This document shows positions 6,744 through 54,986 of a stretch of 64,000 nucleotides of DNA, one piece after another. A model generated the notes under the pieces. That model was not told the origin of the DNA, ran no database searches, and worked only from the letters and a program-made list of their open reading frames with translations. The DNA lies in the NCBI RefSeq assembly GCF_003052295.1, contig NZ_QBLC01000001.1, positions 537,489 through 601,488 of the forward strand, in the 5' to 3' direction. The DNA is from Trichococcus paludicola. Lineage in GTDB: Bacteria > Bacillota > Bacilli > Lactobacillales > Aerococcaceae. The translations under genes and the position numbers were made by a program. The stretch's first letter is position 1. Each line of letters opens with the position of its first letter.

Positions 6744-6993
6744 ATGTCTAGCTTCACGGGTTAGCCCTTCGGAAAGGGTAAAGGAACCCCTTGTCTCTGT
6801 GAGCCAAGGATACTGTGCGACTAACCTGCTGACGCAGGAAGTCTCTCAGCATATTGCGCTCTACGATGCTCAGTTGCATGGGAGTCTTAGGGATTCATCC
6901 CTTAGAGTCCCAGTACAAGGTGACCGTAGGGAACGTTGCAAGTCATGATTTCCTAAAATTCTTTCAGGGCTGAGCGAACCTGTTCAGCTTTTC
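6744..6993 (+). repeat. Family A dispersed palindromic element, copy 1 (long form)
   Basis: A 250-bp element nearly identical to copy 2 at 7721-7970. The left end is TCTAGCTTCACGGGTTAGCC and the right end CTGTTCAGCTTTTC; the ends are imperfect inverted repeats (AGCTtcACGGGTT against AGCTgaACGGGTT). It contains the small hairpin CCTGC-TGAC-GCAGG and a longer one with arms GGGAGTCTTAGGGAT and ATCCCTTAGAGTCCC. It fills the gap between the DUF4956 gene and the lipoprotein gene, and its right end lies directly against the DUF4956 stop codon (6994-6996). In the mRNA of that operon it would be read as the reverse complement. Confidence 0.9.
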
Positions 6994-7668
6994 CTATCCG
7001 GCTTGGTTGCCGTTGTAGCTGACCAAAGTGGCGTTTTGGACGCCTTCGATGGCGCTCAATTCATTCATGAAGCTTGTTTCGTTGTTCTTGACTTTTACTT
7101 CATAGATCAATTCCGGTTGACCGTCCGTGATGCTCTTGGATTTAACGATGATTTTTCCGAAACGGTTTTTGATGATTTCGGTGGCCTGCAATTCAGCATT
7201 CTCATTCTCCAACTGCAACATCAAGATGTAAGGGGCCGAAGAATCGACTTTTCCTGTCAGAACGAGCAGGATGACAGTGATGAATGCAGATCCGAGGAAA
7301 GCCAGAGAATACAAGCCAGCTCCTAGGATGATGCCGACGCTGATCGACCAGAAGAGGAAGACCAGGTCAAGCGGCTCCTTGATGGCGGTACGGAAGCGGA
7401 CGATGGAAAGGGCACCGACCATCCCTAGGGAAAGGACAACGTTGGAGGTTACAGCCAGGATGACGAAAGTGGTCAGGACCGACAATAGTACCAACGACGT
7501 GTTGAAGGGTTTCGAATACATGACGCCGGCGTAGGTTTTTTTATAGATGAAGAAGATGAATAGTCCTATGAAGAGCGCCGATAGCAGGGAAACTGAAGCC
7601 GCCGCGATGGAAAAGTCGGCAGTTTCTTCCAAAAAGCTGTTTTTAATGATATCTGTAAATGTTGTCAT
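6994..7668 (-). CDS. DUF4956 membrane protein of the polyphosphate polymerase block
   Basis: 224 residues with about four N-terminal membrane helices (within residues 20-140; the motif SLGMVGALSIVRFRTAIKEP is characteristic), then a cytosolic domain of about 80 residues with a ferredoxin-like pattern. It matches the DUF4956 family, usually encoded next to VTC-type polyphosphate polymerases, as here. Its function is not established; a role as membrane partner or channel of the polymerase is inferred from this linkage. Family A elements lie on both sides. The start follows an AGGAGGAAT ribosome binding site. Confidence 0.85.
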   Translation of the reverse strand: MTTFTDIIKNSFLEETADFSIAAASVSLLSALFIGLFIFFIYKKTYAGVMYSKPFNTSLVLLSVLTTFVILAVTSNVVLSLGMVGALSIVRFRTAIKEPLDLVFLFWSISVGIILGAGLYSLAFLGSAFITVILLVLTGKVDSSAPYILMLQLENENAELQATEIIKNRFGKIIVKSKSITDGQPELIYEVKVKNNETSFMNELSAIEGVQNATLVSYNGNQAG

Positions 7669-7720
7669 GTGAATATTCCTCCTGGTGTGGTTTAAAATAA
7701 TATTCCCTGCTTCTTATATG

Positions 7721-7970
7721 ATGTCTAGCTTCACGGGTAAGCCCTTCGGAAAGGATAGAGGAACCCCTTGTCTCTGCGAGCCAAGGATACTATTCGACTA
7801 CCCTGCTGACGCAGGAAGTCTCTCAGCATATTGCGCTCTACTATGCTCAGGTGCATGGGACTTTTAGCGATTCATCCCCTAGAGTCCCAGTACAAGGTGA
7901 CCGTAGGGAACGTTGCGTGGCACGATTTCCTAAAATTCTTTCAGGGCTGAGCGAACCCGTTCAGCTTTTC
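7721..7970 (+). repeat. Family A dispersed palindromic element, copy 2 (long form)
   Basis: A 250-bp copy, close to copy 1 over its whole length and with the same internal hairpins. It occupies nearly the whole gap between the VTC polymerase gene and the DUF4956 gene; the right end (TTCAGCTTTTC) touches the polymerase stop codon at 7971-7973. Differences from copy 1 are scattered single bases, which suggests related but not freshly duplicated copies. Confidence 0.9.
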
Positions 7971-8657
7971 TCAAATTTGGTTTAAATGTCTTCCAATTAC
8001 GTATTTTGAATGCGAGGTGCTGTTTGTTTCTTCTGTCTGCACCAGGCTTTGGATCCATCCCGGCAGATAGTTGTCGAATTTTACTTCCAGTACACAATCG
8101 ATCCCGGGTTCCCTTATTCCGATTCGGCCATCGTGGAAGAAAGAGGAAACTTGTGTGCTGGCGTGCATATCAAAATCGAGTGTGATGCGCGTATTCCCGG
8201 GGCCATAGGCGAAGGCTTCGCGTTCGTAAGTGATGATCACTTTTGGTTCCATGCATTGGCTCTTGCACTTGGCATAAAATTCTTGGAGCAACGGGTGGCT
8301 GGCATCGGTAAGGCAGTCATATTTTTTTTGGATAAGCTGATCGGCCACTTCTTTCGTAATGCAGGCGCTCTGTTTATAACCGACAGCGCCATCCTTGACT
8401 TTTTTTTCCAGGCGGATAAAGGAAGCGTCGTTGTTGTAATAACGGATCCGAAATTTTTCGCGATAGCTGCGGCCATCCTCTTTGTCCCAAAAAGCATCAT
8501 CATAAATCGTGTCAAAATAGAGACTCCTGATGCTGTAACTGTTGCCTACTGAATTCTCGTCATGTTTTAGGACCTTTCTCAGACGGCTAGTGAGGATGAC
8601 TTTGTTCTTTTGGGAAATTTCGTGTTTGAATTCATTGCGGTAGCATATTTCGCTCAT
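7971..8657 (-). CDS. VTC-domain polyphosphate polymerase
   Basis: 228 residues, covering one VTC domain (the catalytic tunnel domain of yeast Vtc4, of the CYTH/TTM superfamily). Basic residues and acidic metal ligands line alternate strands: YRNEFKHEI at the start, KFRIRYYNN, IRLEKKVKDGAVGYKQ, VIITYEREAF, RITLDFDM and VLEVKFDNYLP. The family makes polyphosphate from ATP at the membrane. It has no membrane segment of its own, which fits the adjacent DUF4956 membrane protein as a partner. It is first in a minus-strand block followed by DUF4956 and Cthe_2159 genes. A PPK1 is encoded separately at 58.3 kb. Confidence 0.88.
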   Translation of the reverse strand: MSEICYRNEFKHEISQKNKVILTSRLRKVLKHDENSVGNSYSIRSLYFDTIYDDAFWDKEDGRSYREKFRIRYYNNDASFIRLEKKVKDGAVGYKQSACITKEVADQLIQKKYDCLTDASHPLLQEFYAKCKSQCMEPKVIITYEREAFAYGPGNTRITLDFDMHASTQVSSFFHDGRIGIREPGIDCVLEVKFDNYLPGWIQSLVQTEETNSTSHSKYVIGRHLNQI

Positions 8658-21035: not shown

Positions 21036-23490
21036 AAGTTATGATATAGAAGGCATGAGTTGTGCATCGTGCTCACAGGCCGTGGAAAAAGCGGCCGCAA
21101 AAGTTGCAGGCGTTAAGGAAGCGACCGTCAACTTGGCGACCGAGAAGCTGACGGTTGCTGTCGATGAAAGCCATTTTTCAGAAGAAATTCTGAAGAATGC
21201 CGTCGATGCAGCGGGCTACGTTATGGTGGCAAACAAAAAGGAAAAGACATTTCTGATCGAAGGCATGAGTTGTGCTTCGTGTTCCCAAACCGTGGAAAAA
21301 GTCACTAGAGCCGTCAATGGCGTCTCTGATGCATCCGTGAACTTGGCTACCGAAAAAATGGTCGTCTCTTACGATCCGACCGTTCTTCATGCGGGGGATA
21401 TCGAAAAAGTCGTGGCCGAAGCCGGCTACAAGGCTATCGAAGAGAGTGCTACTATAGAAGAAAGCGACCAAAACCAAGCGAAAAAAGAAAAGCACATCAG
21501 AAATATGTGGAGACGTTTTTGGCTCTCGGCAGTATTCACGCTTCCGCTTCTGTATCTCGCGATGGGCCACATGCTGGGCTTGCCGTTGCCGATGAGCCTC
21601 CATCCGAATATGTATCCTGTCACGTTCGCGCTCACGCAGCTTGTGCTGACGATTCCAGTGATGGTGCTGGGGACGAAATTTTTTACAGTAGGATTCAAGT
21701 CCTTGTTCAAAGGCCACCCGAATATGGACTCGCTGGTGGCATTGGGGACCAGTACTGCCTTTCTGTATAGTCTATATGGCACATTTGCGGCAATCGGAGG
21801 GAACAACGAACTTGTCATGAACTTGTACTACGAATCGGCAGCTGTCATATTGACGCTGATCACGCTCGGGAAGTACTTCGAGGCCGTTTCAAAAGGCAAG
21901 ACATCGGAGGCCATCAAAAAACTGATGGGCTTGGCTCCTAAGACAGCCCGCGTCATCCGTGATGGCAATGAGCAGGAGATTAAACTGGATGCTGTCATGG
22001 TAGGGGACATTTTGGTTGTCCGCCCAGGCGAGAAAATGGCTGTCGATGGGAAAGTGACGGAAGGCCTGACATCCGTCGATGAATCGATGCTGACAGGTGA
22101 GAGCATGCCGGTGGAGAAAAAAGCGGGTGATGTGATCATTGGCGGCAGCATCAATAAAAACGGAACGATCCAATACCGTGCCGAAAAAGTCGGGAAAGAT
22201 ACGGCCCTTGCGCAGATCATCAAGTTGGTGGAAGATGCCCAAGGTTCAAAAGCGCCGATCGCAAAACTGGCTGATACGATTTCGGGCTATTTTGTTCCGA
22301 TCGTCATCGTGCTCGCTGTTCTGGCCGGGCTGGCTTGGTACTTCCTGGGACAAGAATCCTGGATTTTTGCACTGACCATAACGATTTCGGTATTAGTAAT
22401 CGCTTGTCCTTGCGCTTTGGGCTTGGCGACACCGACCGCCATCATGGTGGGTACCGGCAAGGGTGCCGAAAACGGTGTGCTGATCAAAAGCGGGACGGCT
22501 CTGGAAGTGACCCATAAAATCCAGACAATCGTTTTCGATAAGACGGGGACGATCACCGAAGGAAAACCGAAAGTGACGGATGTTCTGGTCCGTGAAGGGC
22601 TGGATCCAGATGAATTGTTGCTGCTGGCTGCATCGGCTGAAAAAGGGTCGGAGCATCCACTTGGAGAAGCCATCGTTCGCGATGCCGAGGAGAAAGAGCT
22701 GTCTTTGTTGAAACCATCCGCCTTCAATGCGCTGCCGGGCTTCGGTATTGCTGTCACAATCGATGGGAAAGAGCTTCTGTTGGGAAATGAAAAATTGATG
22801 CTGAACCATGCAATCGGACTCGGTTCATTTGCCGAAACCTCCCACACGCTGGCGGAACAAGGCAAGACACCGATGTACATCGCAATGGATGGGGAATTGG
22901 CCGGCATCATCGCCGTTGCCGATACTGTGAAAGCAAGCAGTGCGGCCGCAATCAAGAAACTGCGTGGTATGGGTATCGAAATCGCGATGATAACAGGCGA
23001 CAATAAGCGTACGGCACAAGCCATCGCCAAACAAGTCGGCATTGACCGTGTCTTGAGTGAAGTATTGCCTGAAGACAAAGCGGAAGAAGTCAAGAAGCTG
23101 CAACAGGGCGGCCGCAAGGTCGCCATGGTCGGAGACGGCGTCAATGATGCACCGGCCTTGGCCCAAGCCGACATAGGCATCGCCATCGGATCGGGGACGG
23201 ACGTCGCCATTGAATCGGCGGACATCGTGCTGATGAAGAGCGACCTGATGGCAGTAGCCACAGCTGTTGAACTCAGCAAAGCGACCATCAAAAACATCAA
23301 GGAGAATCTGTTCTGGGCATTCGCCTATAATGTCCTGGGCATTCCTGTCGCAATGGGAATCCTGCACGTCTTCGGAGGTCCCTTGCTGAATCCGATGATC
23401 GCCGGAGCAGCGATGAGTTTCAGCTCGGTGTCGGTTGTATTGAATGCATTACGTCTGAAAGGATTCAAACCCTCCGTCTCAAAACGGTAA
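21025..23490 (+). CDS. copA: Copper-exporting P1B-type ATPase
   Basis: 821 residues. Two N-terminal heavy-metal-binding domains each carry GMSCASC (residues about 8-14 and 76-82). Eight membrane helices follow, with the transport motif CPC in ACPCALGLATP, TGES in the actuator domain, phosphorylation motif DKTGT, nucleotide-binding HP in SEHPLGE, and GDGVNDAPAL in the hinge; YN and MSFSSVSV occur in the last helices. These are the signatures of Cu(I) exporters. It removes copper from the cytosol and receives it from CopZ. AAGGAGGAA lies inside the end of copY. Confidence 0.96.
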   Translation: MENKSYDIEGMSCASCSQAVEKAAAKVAGVKEATVNLATEKLTVAVDESHFSEEILKNAVDAAGYVMVANKKEKTFLIEGMSCASCSQTVEKVTRAVNGVSDASVNLATEKMVVSYDPTVLHAGDIEKVVAEAGYKAIEESATIEESDQNQAKKEKHIRNMWRRFWLSAVFTLPLLYLAMGHMLGLPLPMSLHPNMYPVTFALTQLVLTIPVMVLGTKFFTVGFKSLFKGHPNMDSLVALGTSTAFLYSLYGTFAAIGGNNELVMNLYYESAAVILTLITLGKYFEAVSKGKTSEAIKKLMGLAPKTARVIRDGNEQEIKLDAVMVGDILVVRPGEKMAVDGKVTEGLTSVDESMLTGESMPVEKKAGDVIIGGSINKNGTIQYRAEKVGKDTALAQIIKLVEDAQGSKAPIAKLADTISGYFVPIVIVLAVLAGLAWYFLGQESWIFALTITISVLVIACPCALGLATPTAIMVGTGKGAENGVLIKSGTALEVTHKIQTIVFDKTGTITEGKPKVTDVLVREGLDPDELLLLAASAEKGSEHPLGEAIVRDAEEKELSLLKPSAFNALPGFGIAVTIDGKELLLGNEKLMLNHAIGLGSFAETSHTLAEQGKTPMYIAMDGELAGIIAVADTVKASSAAAIKKLRGMGIEIAMITGDNKRTAQAIAKQVGIDRVLSEVLPEDKAEEVKKLQQGGRKVAMVGDGVNDAPALAQADIGIAIGSGTDVAIESADIVLMKSDLMAVATAVELSKATIKNIKENLFWAFAYNVLGIPVAMGILHVFGGPLLNPMIAGAAMSFSSVSVVLNALRLKGFKPSVSKR

Positions 23491-26641: not shown

Positions 26642-27496
26642 ATGGAAAAAGTGGAAGGACCTTATCACTTATTGAACGATGAACTAGTAAAAAATACTGA
26701 CGGCGAAAGCTATCCGGAATTTGAAGGCCGGACGGTATACGAAGTCATCCGTGTCGAGGATGGGATTGCGATATTTTTGGAGGATCATCTGGATCGTTTT
26801 TTCCGGTCCGCTGCTTATCTGGATTTACCACTACCAGCTACGGCGGAATCCATTGAGAACCGTGTCTATCGCCTGATAGCTGCCAATCAGGTGGGGAATC
26901 AGAACCTTAAGTTCATTCTGGGGAAAACATCAAAAAGCGAAAGCATTTTGTGGATCTTTTTCACCCAGAGCATCTACCCGCCAAAAAGCTATTATGAAGA
27001 GGGCATCGCGACGAGCCTGTTCCGTATCGAACGATTGGATCCGAACATCAAGCTTGTCCGTTCGGATTACCAGAAAGCCGTGCTGCAGGAACGGGCAGAT
27101 AAAGACGTTTATGAGCTGTTGCTTGTGGATGGAAATGAGGAAATCACGGAGGGCAGCCGCACGAATGTCTTTTTTGTGAAAGGAAAAGAATTATACACGC
27201 CCCCTGCAAAAGCGGTACTCTTGGGAATCGTCCGCAAAAAAGTATTCGAAATCTGTGAAAAAAGAGGGATTCCGATCAATGAGACAGCCATCCCCGTCGA
27301 GTGGGTCAATGATGCTGAAGGAGCCTTCGTTTCAGGAACCGGAAACAACGTGCTGCCGATATCAAAAATCGGAACGGTTGCGATTCCGACGATGGACAAT
27401 CTGATTGTGCGTACAATCATGGCAGATTATGCCGAAATGGTCAGAGTGTATAAGGAAGAAAAGAAACATAAAAAAAACATTGTTACCCTTTGTTGA
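26642..27496 (+). CDS. PLP-dependent class IV aminotransferase
   Basis: 284 residues of fold-type IV. The catalytic Lys is in VRSDYQKAVLQ and the PLP-ring contact Glu in EEITEGSRTNVFFV; VVSGTG-like FVSGTGNNVLPI closes the phosphate-binding site. The group contains branched-chain aminotransferase, D-amino-acid aminotransferase and aminodeoxychorismate lyase (PabC); sequence alone does not decide. No pab or ilv gene is adjacent. AAGGGG precedes the ATG. A terminator follows. Confidence 0.82.
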   Translation: MEKVEGPYHLLNDELVKNTDGESYPEFEGRTVYEVIRVEDGIAIFLEDHLDRFFRSAAYLDLPLPATAESIENRVYRLIAANQVGNQNLKFILGKTSKSESILWIFFTQSIYPPKSYYEEGIATSLFRIERLDPNIKLVRSDYQKAVLQERADKDVYELLLVDGNEEITEGSRTNVFFVKGKELYTPPAKAVLLGIVRKKVFEICEKRGIPINETAIPVEWVNDAEGAFVSGTGNNVLPISKIGTVAIPTMDNLIVRTIMADYAEMVRVYKEEKKHKKNIVTLC

Positions 27497-27547: not shown

Positions 27548-27578
27548 ACCATCACTTCGGTTCAAGTGGTGGTTTTTT
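27548..27578 (+). terminator. Intrinsic terminator after aminotransferase
   Basis: ACCATCACTT and AAGTGGTGGT (one G-T pair) around CGGTTC, then T6. Confidence 0.88.
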
Positions 27579-27673
27579 ATATTCTAGAAAAGTATAAGAT
27601 TATTTTGTAATCAAAAGTGCATCACCATAGGTGTTTTACAGGATAGCAAACTATTCTATGCATCTCAACATGG

Positions 27674-27862
27674 TGGCTAGCTTCACGGGTTAGCCCTTCG
27701 GAAATTAGATAAATCTGACCCATTGCGCTCTACGATGCTCATTTGCATGGGATTCTTAGGGATTCATCCCTTAGAATCCCAGTATAAGGTGACCGTAGGG
27801 AACGTTGCGAGGCCAGATTTCCTAAATTTCTTTCAGGGCTGAGCGAACCCGTTCAGCTTTTC
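27674..27862 (+). repeat. Family A dispersed palindromic element, copy 3 (medium form)
   Basis: A 189-bp copy. The left end GGCTAGCTTCACGGGTTAGC and right end CCCGTTCAGCTTTTC match copies 1 and 2. It lacks the ~80-bp left insert of the long form; instead TTAGATAAATCTG pairs with CAGATTTCCTAA nearer the right end. The GGGATTCTTAGGGAT/ATCCCTTAGAATCCC hairpin is present. It lies upstream of birA; here no gene stop codon touches the right end. Confidence 0.9.
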
Positions 27863-27884: not shown

Positions 27885-28877
27885 ATGTCAACAAAGGAGA
27901 AAGTCCTCCAGTTTCTGGAGCAGCATAAAGGCGAAAGCATTTCCGGCCAAGATTTGGCTGATCAATTGGAAGTATCCAGAACATCTGTGTGGAAAGCAAT
28001 CAATGGCCTGAAAAAAGAAGGCTATCAAATAGAAGCAACTACGAATAAGGGGTATCAGCTGTCCGTTGAAAGCGACTTGTTGTCGGAGGCAGCCATTGTA
28101 CCACTGTTATCAGAAGCGCTGAAAGATCACCGGATCATCGCACATAAAACGATTGATTCGACCAACCTTGAGGCCAAACGGATCGTCAATGAAGAAGCGA
28201 CCTTCGAAGGCGTGATCTTATCTGAAGAACAGACAAAAGGCAGAGGGCGCTTAGGTAGAGTTTTCTACTCGCCGAGCGAATCGGGCTTGTACATGAGTTT
28301 GGTGTTGAAGCCGGTCGCTGATCTGGATAACGCCACTTTGATCACGACTGCCGCCGCTGTGGCCGTCTGTCAAGCAATCGAAACATTGACCGGAAAAGAA
28401 CCACAAATCAAATGGGTGAACGACATCTTCATGGATGGCAGGAAAGTCTGCGGCATCCTGACGGAAGGGATCATGGATATGGAATCGCGGACGATCGGAA
28501 CGATCATTTTAGGGATCGGCCTGAACTTCCGGGCGCCTGAAACGGATTTTCCGGATGAAATCCAGTCAATCGCCGGCACCTTGTTCGATTCAAAAAATGC
28601 CGTGGTGACACGGAACCAAATGGCCGCCGAAATACTCAATCGTTTTTACGTCCTTTACCCTGATTTGGCATCCCGTTCCTACCTGGACGAGTACCGCAAG
28701 CGTTGCTTCGTCTTGGGTGAACAAGTTACTTTCCCGCAAGGAAACGAAACGATCGAAGCCAAAGCGATCGCGATTGATGACGATGGCGGACTTATTGTAG
28801 CATTGCCGGATGGGGAAACGAAAACCCTGACCTATGGCGAAATCAGCATCAAAATCAAAAAGAGAGAAGGAAATTAA
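27885..28877 (+). CDS. birA: Bifunctional biotin-protein ligase / biotin repressor
   Basis: 330 residues. N-terminal helix-turn-helix (SGQDLADQLEVSRTSVWKAINGLKKEGY), central ligase domain with biotin/ATP loop GRGRLGR and KWVND, and a small SH3-like C-terminal domain. It makes biotinoyl-AMP, biotinylates carboxylases and can repress biotin genes. GGAGGGAAAGA precedes the ATG, which lies 22 bp after a family A repeat. bioY follows with a single base between stop and start, so they form one operon for biotin uptake and use. No canonical BirA operator palindrome is visible upstream. Confidence 0.95.
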   Translation: MSTKEKVLQFLEQHKGESISGQDLADQLEVSRTSVWKAINGLKKEGYQIEATTNKGYQLSVESDLLSEAAIVPLLSEALKDHRIIAHKTIDSTNLEAKRIVNEEATFEGVILSEEQTKGRGRLGRVFYSPSESGLYMSLVLKPVADLDNATLITTAAAVAVCQAIETLTGKEPQIKWVNDIFMDGRKVCGILTEGIMDMESRTIGTIILGIGLNFRAPETDFPDEIQSIAGTLFDSKNAVVTRNQMAAEILNRFYVLYPDLASRSYLDEYRKRCFVLGEQVTFPQGNETIEAKAIAIDDDGGLIVALPDGETKTLTYGEISIKIKKREGN

Positions 28878-53893: not shown

Positions 53894-53973
53894 CGCTTCT
53901 TAGTTTTTCGGTTGGTCCGCTCTGAAAAGTGTGGTATCCTTTCTATTATAAAATTGATTTTGGAGGGAAAACG

Positions 53974-54723
53974 TTGAGCGGATTAATCTATCGCAGCACC
54001 CATCGCATTAAAGGCTATGAATGTGACATCACCGGTGAGATAACTTTGCCATCGCTCGTCAACCTGATGATGGACTTGTCGGGCCAACAAAGCGATTCAC
54101 TCGGGAACACGAATGATCAGATGTCCGAAAGAGGACTCAGTTGGATCATCGTTCAGTACGACATGCAGATCGAACGCATGCCGCACCGAGGCGAAGAAAT
54201 CATTCTGGAAACAGAAGCGATGAGCTATAACCGTTTCTTCACCTATCGCCGCTTCCGAGCTTACGATGAAAGCGAACAACTGTGTGTGGAAGTGATGACG
54301 AACTTCGTCATGATGGACATCGAGACCCGTAAAATGGTCCAGATCCAAAAAGACCTGCTGACCGTCTATCAGGCCGATGAAATCCGGACGATGGTGCGCA
54401 TGCAGAAGCCGATCCAACTGGAGCCGGAAAACCGCAAGGAACAGGATTTCCGCGTCAGATACTTGGATATCGACTACAATCGCCATGTCAACAACGCGAA
54501 ATATTTCGATTGGATCATCAACACGATCGATCCGAAATTCATCATGGATCACCAGATGGCTGCCGTTACGATCAAGTACGAAAAAGAGGTCGAATACGGC
54601 AACAGCATCACCAGCGCCATGTCAATGAAAGAAGCGGAGAACGGCGAAATCATCACCGCGCACCGCATCATGAACGGCGAAGACCTAGCCTGCGAAGCCC
54701 ACATGATCTGGAAAAAAGTTTAG
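53974..54723 (+). CDS. Acyl-ACP thioesterase
   Basis: 249 residues with a double hot-dog fold of the FatA/FatB type. WIIVQYDMQIERMPHRGE in the first half and the catalytic segment RYLDIDYNRHVNNAKYFDW (Asp/Asn/His) in the second are diagnostic. It releases fatty acids from acyl carrier protein. The start is TTG 53974, six bases after GGAGGG; the in-frame ATG at 53929 lies upstream of that site and has no ribosome binding site. A family A element abuts the stop codon. Confidence 0.88.
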   Translation: MSGLIYRSTHRIKGYECDITGEITLPSLVNLMMDLSGQQSDSLGNTNDQMSERGLSWIIVQYDMQIERMPHRGEEIILETEAMSYNRFFTYRRFRAYDESEQLCVEVMTNFVMMDIETRKMVQIQKDLLTVYQADEIRTMVRMQKPIQLEPENRKEQDFRVRYLDIDYNRHVNNAKYFDWIINTIDPKFIMDHQMAAVTIKYEKEVEYGNSITSAMSMKEAENGEIITAHRIMNGEDLACEAHMIWKKV

Positions 54724-54847
54724 AAAAGCGGAACGGGTTCGTTCAGCCCTGAAAGAAATTTAGGAAATCTGGCCCTGAATGAGCATCGTAGAGCGCAATG
54801 GGTCAGATTTATCTAATTTCCGAAGGGCTAACCCGTGAAGCTAGCCA
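54724..54847 (-). repeat. Family A dispersed palindromic element, copy 4 (short form)
   Basis: A 124-bp copy in reverse orientation relative to copies 1-3. Read on the minus strand it has the left end GGCTAGCTTCACGGGTTAGC, TTAGATAAATCTGACCC, the core ATTGCGCTCTACGATGCTCA, GGCCAGATTTCCTAA and the right end CCCGTTCCGCTTTT. Both internal inserts of the long form are missing, leaving almost one long imperfect hairpin. Its right end begins at the first base after the thioesterase stop codon. Confidence 0.9.
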
Positions 54848-54931
54848 ACGTTTTGGGATGCATGGAATATTTTATAACCCTGTGCAACACCAGAGGTGAG
54901 GCACTTTTGGAATTGAAATATTCTATTAAAC

Positions 54932-54975
54932 AAAAAGAGGAACAACCCGAACGCTCGTCGGTTTGTTCCTCTTTT
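54932..54975 (-). terminator. Bidirectional terminator between thioesterase and ABC-F genes
   Basis: AAAAAGAGGAACA and TGTTCCTCTTTTT arms with inner CCGA/TCGG pairing; T5 on both strands. Confidence 0.92.
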
Positions 54976-54986
54976 TCGTGCCGATT

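Follow-up and report, generated by a model that had tools for sequence, protein, structure and literature searches.

A modular, most likely mobile repeat that probably inserts beside intrinsic terminators in Trichococcus

By analogy of build, the closest described kind to the repeat reported here is BOX of the pneumococcus, a modular interspersed repeat (PMC3049150). BOX of S. pneumoniae and S. suis, as presented in the part of that paper drawn on here, is a composite of fixed ends and variable inner modules, has a predicted stem-loop, is mostly intergenic and non-autonomous, carries terminal inverted repeats, produces target duplications, and has a strand distribution that follows coding bias, with 60.8% on the leading strand. 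RUP of S. pneumoniae is described in the same part as simple; it is small, and its end repeats resemble an IS630-type element. SPRITE, also of S. pneumoniae, is small, terminator-like and placed near gene ends, the repeat itself being the terminator (PMC3049150). REPINs, considered with their RAYTs, consist in the excerpt used of inverted arms around a spacer with a predicted hairpin, and are non-autonomous and present in many copies (PMC3116915). Group IIC introns insert at intrinsic terminators and have a structured RNA, and replication-linked priming is known for introns without an endonuclease (PMC4424553, in the portion used). The main text of a MITE review (PMC10969869) contained neither 'Enterococcus' nor 'stop codon'.

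The repeat shared with BOX the fixed end modules and optional inner modules, the predicted stem-loop, the mostly intergenic position and the non-autonomous state. Unlike BOX, as the cited part of PMC3049150 describes it, the repeat had no terminal inverted repeats, its right end faced terminators and its orientation was mostly against the replication fork; terminator-guided and fork-biased insertion seem to be combined in it, a combination which that part does not report for BOX. One 22-nt BOX primer, the sole BOX sequence compared, had no match at up to 3 mismatches in the window (the whole stretch of 64,000 nucleotides that was analysed). The repeat was small like RUP but modular, and its terminator was host sequence adjoining it, unlike in SPRITE. 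With REPINs it shared the inverted arms around a spacer, the predicted hairpin, the non-autonomous state and the many copies, but Y1 genes were not found in every carrier genome and a terminator rule held at one end. It resembled group IIC introns in its likely insertion at intrinsic terminators and its putative structured RNA, but had no reverse transcriptase inside. Rfam gave only a tRNA in the window at gathering thresholds, and for one large copy (L203), at E up to 10, only matches below the families' thresholds and no group II intron; among the open-access papers listed in the literature searches, none named the repeat family. The original remark that no named family fits was thus borne out by Rfam and by the papers listed, and the family is apparently unnamed and widespread.

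Four copies had been predicted in the window, in 250-, 189- and 124-bp forms with two inner modules, and places, forms and modules were all as described. They were recovered by reading the sequence and by R1, a covariance model built from alignment A1 of 57 relatives. Copy 1 (6744-6993, minus strand, 250-bp form) lay directly after the TAG stop (6994-6996, minus) of gene 6994-7668, and had the outer arms, the inner-stem left strand, module A (approximately 6873-6940, minus; inner hairpin AACGTTCCCTACGGTCACC...) and module B (approximately 6774-6851, minus; GAGAGACTTCCTGCGTCAGCAGG...), without the long tail. Copy 2 (7721-7970, minus, 250-bp form) lay directly after the TGA stop (7971-7973, minus) of gene 7971-8657, with modules A (approximately 7850-7917, minus) and B (approximately 7751-7828, minus) as read from the sequence. 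Copies 3 and 4 had been described too short; both extended by a conserved tail, and each ended at a terminator-like hairpin. Copy 3 (27580-27862, minus) had a 189-bp core (27674-27862) with module A (approximately 27742-27809, minus) and no module B, and a tail to about 27580, where its right end was touched by an intrinsic-terminator-like hairpin with a T run (27551-27579, plus) behind gene 26642-27496. Copy 4 (54724-54929, plus) had a 124-bp core (54724-54847) without modules and a tail to about 54929, lay directly after the TAG stop (54721-54723) of gene 53929-54723, and was followed just past its right end by an intrinsic-terminator-like hairpin with A and T runs (54932-54976, plus). Contact of the GAAAAGC end with the upstream stop codon was found in three of the four copies and failed for copy 3, whose left end lay 5' of a biotin-ligase-like gene (27885-28877) and which was antisense to both adjoining genes.

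R1 matched the same four places, at 54724-54842 (plus, E 5e-34), 27679-27861 (minus, E 3.5e-24), 7727-7969 (minus, E 3e-11) and 6750-6992 (minus, E 1.5e-10); a fifth, weak match was the reverse strand of the 54724-54842 copy, and nothing else in the window matched. In the window genome (1.94 Mb, 63% complete, five contigs), 31 BLAST pieces were grouped by eye into about 19 sites. Genes adjoining the window copies matched the Cthe_2159, DUF4956, VTC, aminotransferase class IV, biotin ligase, acyl-ACP thioesterase and ABC transporter families, a mixture that gave no hint of a common function. Elsewhere in the window, two 46-bp direct repeats (21046-21301; 87% alike) lay within an 821-aa open reading frame; they may be metal-binding domains, in tandem, of a P-type ATPase.

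Read from the GAAAAGC end, the order was left arm, inner-stem left strand (GAAATTTAGGAAATCnnnCC), optional module A and core GAGCATCGTAGAGCGCAAT, then either the inner-stem right strand (GGnnnGATTTATCTAATTTCC) or module B, and last the right arm ending GTGAAGCTAG. Some copies had extra modules after the left arm, and the element at the copy 4 site in G011 was about 250 bp longer than copy 4 of the window. Main core lengths were 119-121, 179-185, 245-256, 316-384 and 438-474 nt. In a second arm type (GCGGnACAAGCC...TGCCTC with GAGGCAGGCTTGGACCGC) the pairing was kept and the letters differed. A right arm occurred within 3.5 kb in 116 of the 141 arm matches having enough sequence beyond, and none in 25; many of these 25 were short remnants, and a few had probably matched by chance. 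The tail (GCATGAAACATTTTGCAAAC...GTGATGCACTTTTG...TTTATACTTTCCTA), missed at the first reading, was present in 69 of 141 arm matches, and 72 distinct tails were counted. An outward promoter in the tail, an impression by eye only, was dropped. Among the arm pairs examined, none enclosed a gene to form a long element with two ends: the pairs above 480 nt were one of 519 nt with an odd inner part and one of 2912 nt with a contig gap of N between. Likewise, 0.8 Mb of G023 held no long arm pair, after a 1942-nt pair holding another left arm was set aside. Modules A and B and a third hairpin (TCTAAGCGATT..AATCGCAAGAG) also occurred without arms in intergenic positions of other genera (L324-L328), so that modules seem to move between repeat families.

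Copy 2 (250 nt) had a predicted fold of -87 kcal/mol (z -2.8 against shuffles). Both sides changed in 17 of 35 pairs of A1 (Trichococcus), with a covariation score reached by 0 of 500 shuffles, and this covariation collapsed when the structure was slid along the alignment. The CTGGCC-type rows of A1 were misaligned by two columns and partly scored as unpaired; with the inner stem paired by hand, most of them paired (one of 64 sequences not parsed). In A2, 73 distinct rows from five families fitted to the model and hence biased towards it, 32 of 35 pairs changed on both sides. On the GAAAAGC strand, G.T cells numbered 32 and A.C cells 5 (42 of 57 rows; one invariant G.T column excluded), and the pair of that excluded column, as G.U, persisted across genera in 63 of the 72 rows that were scored. 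The excess of G.T over A.C and the kept G.U pair point to this strand, as RNA or single-stranded DNA, and the strand reading from GAAAAGC to GCTAG would then be the one that folds.

Comparison of matching gaps revealed the element at some sites and its absence at others. The copy 2 gap was empty in eight species (G001, G002, G005, G006, G008, G009, G011 and G012) and filled in four: G003, with the second arm type, G004, G007 and G010. In G007 (L188) it held a minimal bare hairpin with a short tail, which made it about 61 nt longer than the empty site; in G010 (L081, on the same contig as L171) the copy 2 left flank was followed by a short-form copy and then by IS-like sequence near the contig end. 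The copy 4 site was filled in G003, G004, G010 and G011, held an arm remnant in G009, and was empty in G001, G002, G005, G006, G008 and G012; G007 had no match to the upstream gene. The copy 3 site was empty in G006 and G012, and filled, with module A missing, in G004 (T. collinsii, L107). Counted per genome, 35 of 145 arm sites had an element-free matching locus among the sequences compared, loci still showing arm or core motifs having been removed beforehand. In genus g12, seventeen 154-nt copies had a mean identity of 98.5%, which suggests a recent burst. The repeat thus had the MITE traits of short length and presence or absence at matching sites and, judged from these comparisons, most likely moves although it carries no gene. 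In L081, from 6421 (compare L277:835), an IS630-like left end directly followed the right arm of a repeat copy, which an IS seems to have entered.

Among 104 distinct Trichococcus copies, 59 lay behind a gene in sense and 45 were antisense to the upstream gene. With the copy as reference, the strands of the flanking genes (upstream first, then downstream), from crude gene calls of at least 80 codons, were ++ in 32, -- in 32, +- in 27 and -+ in 12, with one copy lacking a downstream call. A start within 10 nt of the stop codon, overlaps counted, was found for 43 of the 59 sense copies; as 43 of 104, the stop-codon rule fitted under half of the copies, and stop-codon placement looks like a by-product. 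A 3'-UTR RNA element, the other role originally proposed, taken here as a conserved regulator of the upstream gene, would account for the sense copies close to stop codons and for the strong covariation. It is nevertheless very improbable, and as a general role it was not supported, because 45 of 104 copies were antisense to the upstream gene and matching sites were often empty in sister species; near-identical copies also occurred at many places in one genome.

A terminator-like hairpin at the right end was a steadier rule than the stop codon, and covered both orientations. Of 55 tailed copies, 25 had a hairpin whose foot carries an A run no more than 35 nt from the right end, and 1 had such a hairpin equally close to the left end; the 15 copies lacking a right arm were omitted. 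For comparison, the same test found the hairpin at 84 of 3000 intergenic points chosen at random and, where the points followed stop codons, at 14 of 179 (Fisher test). Many of the 30 tailed copies failing this strict test showed a hairpin by eye. Tailless copies barely followed the rule (right 4 of 34, left 1 of 34). An earlier test, which required the hairpin to have a strict A run and T run at either side, was dropped as too narrow. In g12 (G023), the hairpin was found at the right end in 14 of 32 copies, at the left end in 1 of 32 and at 102 of 4000 random points, after 3 of the 35 full copies, those with another copy following them, were excluded; its foot lay 7-11 nt from the right end in 13 of 14. 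The right-hand gene pointed at the copy in 31 of 35 in G023.

The left flank was AT-rich, with ATAAG as the commonest 5-mer in Trichococcus (42 of 160) and in 24 of 35 copies of G023. All 35 full g12 copies had TA directly before the left end, one nucleotide of play allowed. The right end read TCTA in all 37 g12 rows, with one further copy reading TCGA; in G023 it was nearly constant (CCCCTAGTCTA) and was followed by TAA (23 of 35), CAA (6), TTA (4), TCA (1) or TGA (1). Compared with empty sites, a TA, TAA or ATAA repeat was seen at #139, #129, #123 and L058, and no repeat or a different one at #70, #35 and #124; either duplication of TA or its absence is possible at the junctions.

These junctions bear on the original prediction of a MITE-like element with a TA-rich target, of which mobility and a TA/TAA target were supported by the empty sites and the left flank; terminal inverted repeats were not found. 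End-to-end likeness of two consensus pairs was no better than in shuffles (867 and 1149 of 2000 shuffles reached the observed similarity). A classical MITE, moved by cut and paste by a TA-target DDE transposase of the IS630/Tc1-mariner type, as proposed for RUP, would explain the TA and TCTA at the ends in g12 and the TA-containing repeat that fits several empty sites, and DDE_3 (IS630-type) genes were present in 6 of 13 Trichococcus genomes. This reading is unlikely: besides the missing inverted repeats, DDE_3 was undetected in the other 7 of 13 genomes, all carriers of the repeat, those IS ends that were read did not match the repeat ends, and a TA palindrome explains no single orientation relative to terminator and fork.

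The GAAAAGC strand ran against the fork in 110 of 148 copies in five genomes (p 2.6e-9), with arrays collapsed to one and the origin inferred from dnaA. By genome, the counts were 22 of 26 in G023, 6 of 7 in G091, 32 of 39 in G284, 29 of 43 in G001 and 21 of 33 in G006; G006 and G091 were each non-significant alone, the counts for G023, G091 and G284 cover only the best matches among those listed, and copies shared by descent are not independent. Over 0.8 Mb of G023 read fully, copies were 30 plus and 5 minus and genes 174 plus and 541 minus, and fork direction and gene direction are confounded in the orientation bias.

A bias by the fork would be expected of an element that moves as single-stranded DNA by means of a Y1/HUH transposase or a RAYT, in the manner of REPINs and IS200/IS605 derivatives, as would hairpins near the ends and a target preference on one flank; further, the g12 right flanks did not always repeat the left TAA, and Y1 genes occurred in 12 of 13 Trichococcus genomes. 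Such an element is nonetheless quite unlikely. A Y1 transposase was not found in every carrier, RAYTs and other Y1 genes counted together: G008 (98% complete) had no Y1_Tnp match yet 19 R1 matches. The Y1 element ends, where read, were unlike the repeat ends, as were those of the IS630-type elements. IS608 follows a lagging-template model of single-strand transposition, and the folding strand indicated by the G.U pairs was opposite to that expectation. Of 32 IS630-type and Y1 loci, only L298 carried repeat arms, an IS200-like element beside a copy; a partner IS among these loci was rejected, the ends being unlike.

The G.U-biased, strongly covarying fold and the A-rich right end, which faces a T run on the opposite strand, would also suit a SINE-like retroposon. 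In this reading a structured RNA is copied into the T run that follows a terminator, perhaps via the reverse transcriptase of a group IIC intron. Two group II introns of one type, both found by motif in 400 kb of G006, lay just behind terminator hairpins, and a third (L094:6769-6875, Rfam Intron_gpII) abutted the right end of a copy. Introns and repeat have a common target, which is not proof of a common enzyme. This origin is improbable: the RNA is putative, and no ends shared with the introns were seen. A reverse-transcriptase motif search over 3.5 Mb gave three matches. The left ends in g12 are almost exact, which does not resemble the 5' truncation of target-primed reverse transcription. 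In the copies scanned there was no group II match above threshold, the L094 match adjoining its copy, and the same tool detects real introns. Group II introns start GUGYG, and this start was not seen in the repeat. The fuller version, bacterial SINEs as protein-less structured RNAs copied back into DNA at terminator T runs during replication by a borrowed reverse transcriptase, and growing as they acquire and exchange hairpin modules, is similarly improbable; if true, such elements would be widely distributed among lactic acid bacteria, some genomes having about 100 copies.

The classical MITE, the Y1 element and the RNA-copied element each explain part of the results, and each has a contrary result. 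The explanation that is probably correct is a mobile modular repeat that carries no gene and likely enters TA/TAA sites next to intrinsic terminators, strand-specifically and by means of a separate enzyme. It agrees with the filled and empty matching sites, the tail, the terminator-like hairpins that the right end faces, the TA/TAA at the left flank, the orientation bias against the fork, the compensatory stem changes, the differing module content of matching copies and the head-to-tail arrays. A non-autonomous, BOX-like unit would land beside terminators in a single orientation, and its insertion may rely on a nicked T run or on DNA that is single-stranded at the fork. The stop codon would often be hit because TAA frequently sits between gene and terminator, and a purine following the TA would leave the stop codon intact after insertion. 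The comparisons above linked the repeat to no transposase, recombinase or reverse transcriptase. The repeat would shape gene ends in many genomes of the order and explain odd operon spacers; near-identical copies could help to find the moving enzyme, and a route through RNA or single strands can be tested on the conserved fold and its changeable modules.

In the family, R1 matched in 16 of 76 genomes (13 of 13 Trichococcus, 3 of 63 others) under strict filters with at most 48 candidates scored per genome. Beyond this family, it also recognised the repeat in four others of the same order. Of 345 genomes of the order, 29 matched in a DNA search with a large form, at most 2 candidates being scored per genome; many of these matches were to single modules only. 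In eight genomes selected for a prior match, with at most 150 candidates scored in each, R1 matches numbered 119 (G023), 114 (G284), 91 (G188), 76 (G321), 38 (G091), 20 (G020), 19 (G058) and 2 (G162); loci of G274 (f7), G176 (f6) and G180 (f2) also matched. Two queries each against phages and plasmids gave no match, nor did the arm pattern match viral contigs. Head-to-tail arrays of several units with a period of about 122 bp occurred in G188, G284 and G321 (L333, L337, L339, L353 and L359), which belong to another family of the same order. Among the matches listed, the arm pattern occurred in records named Trichococcus or 'Sedimentibacter sp. SX930'; the latter record, MUZD01000001.1 (L066, L067, L074 and others), appears to be a Trichococcus genome.
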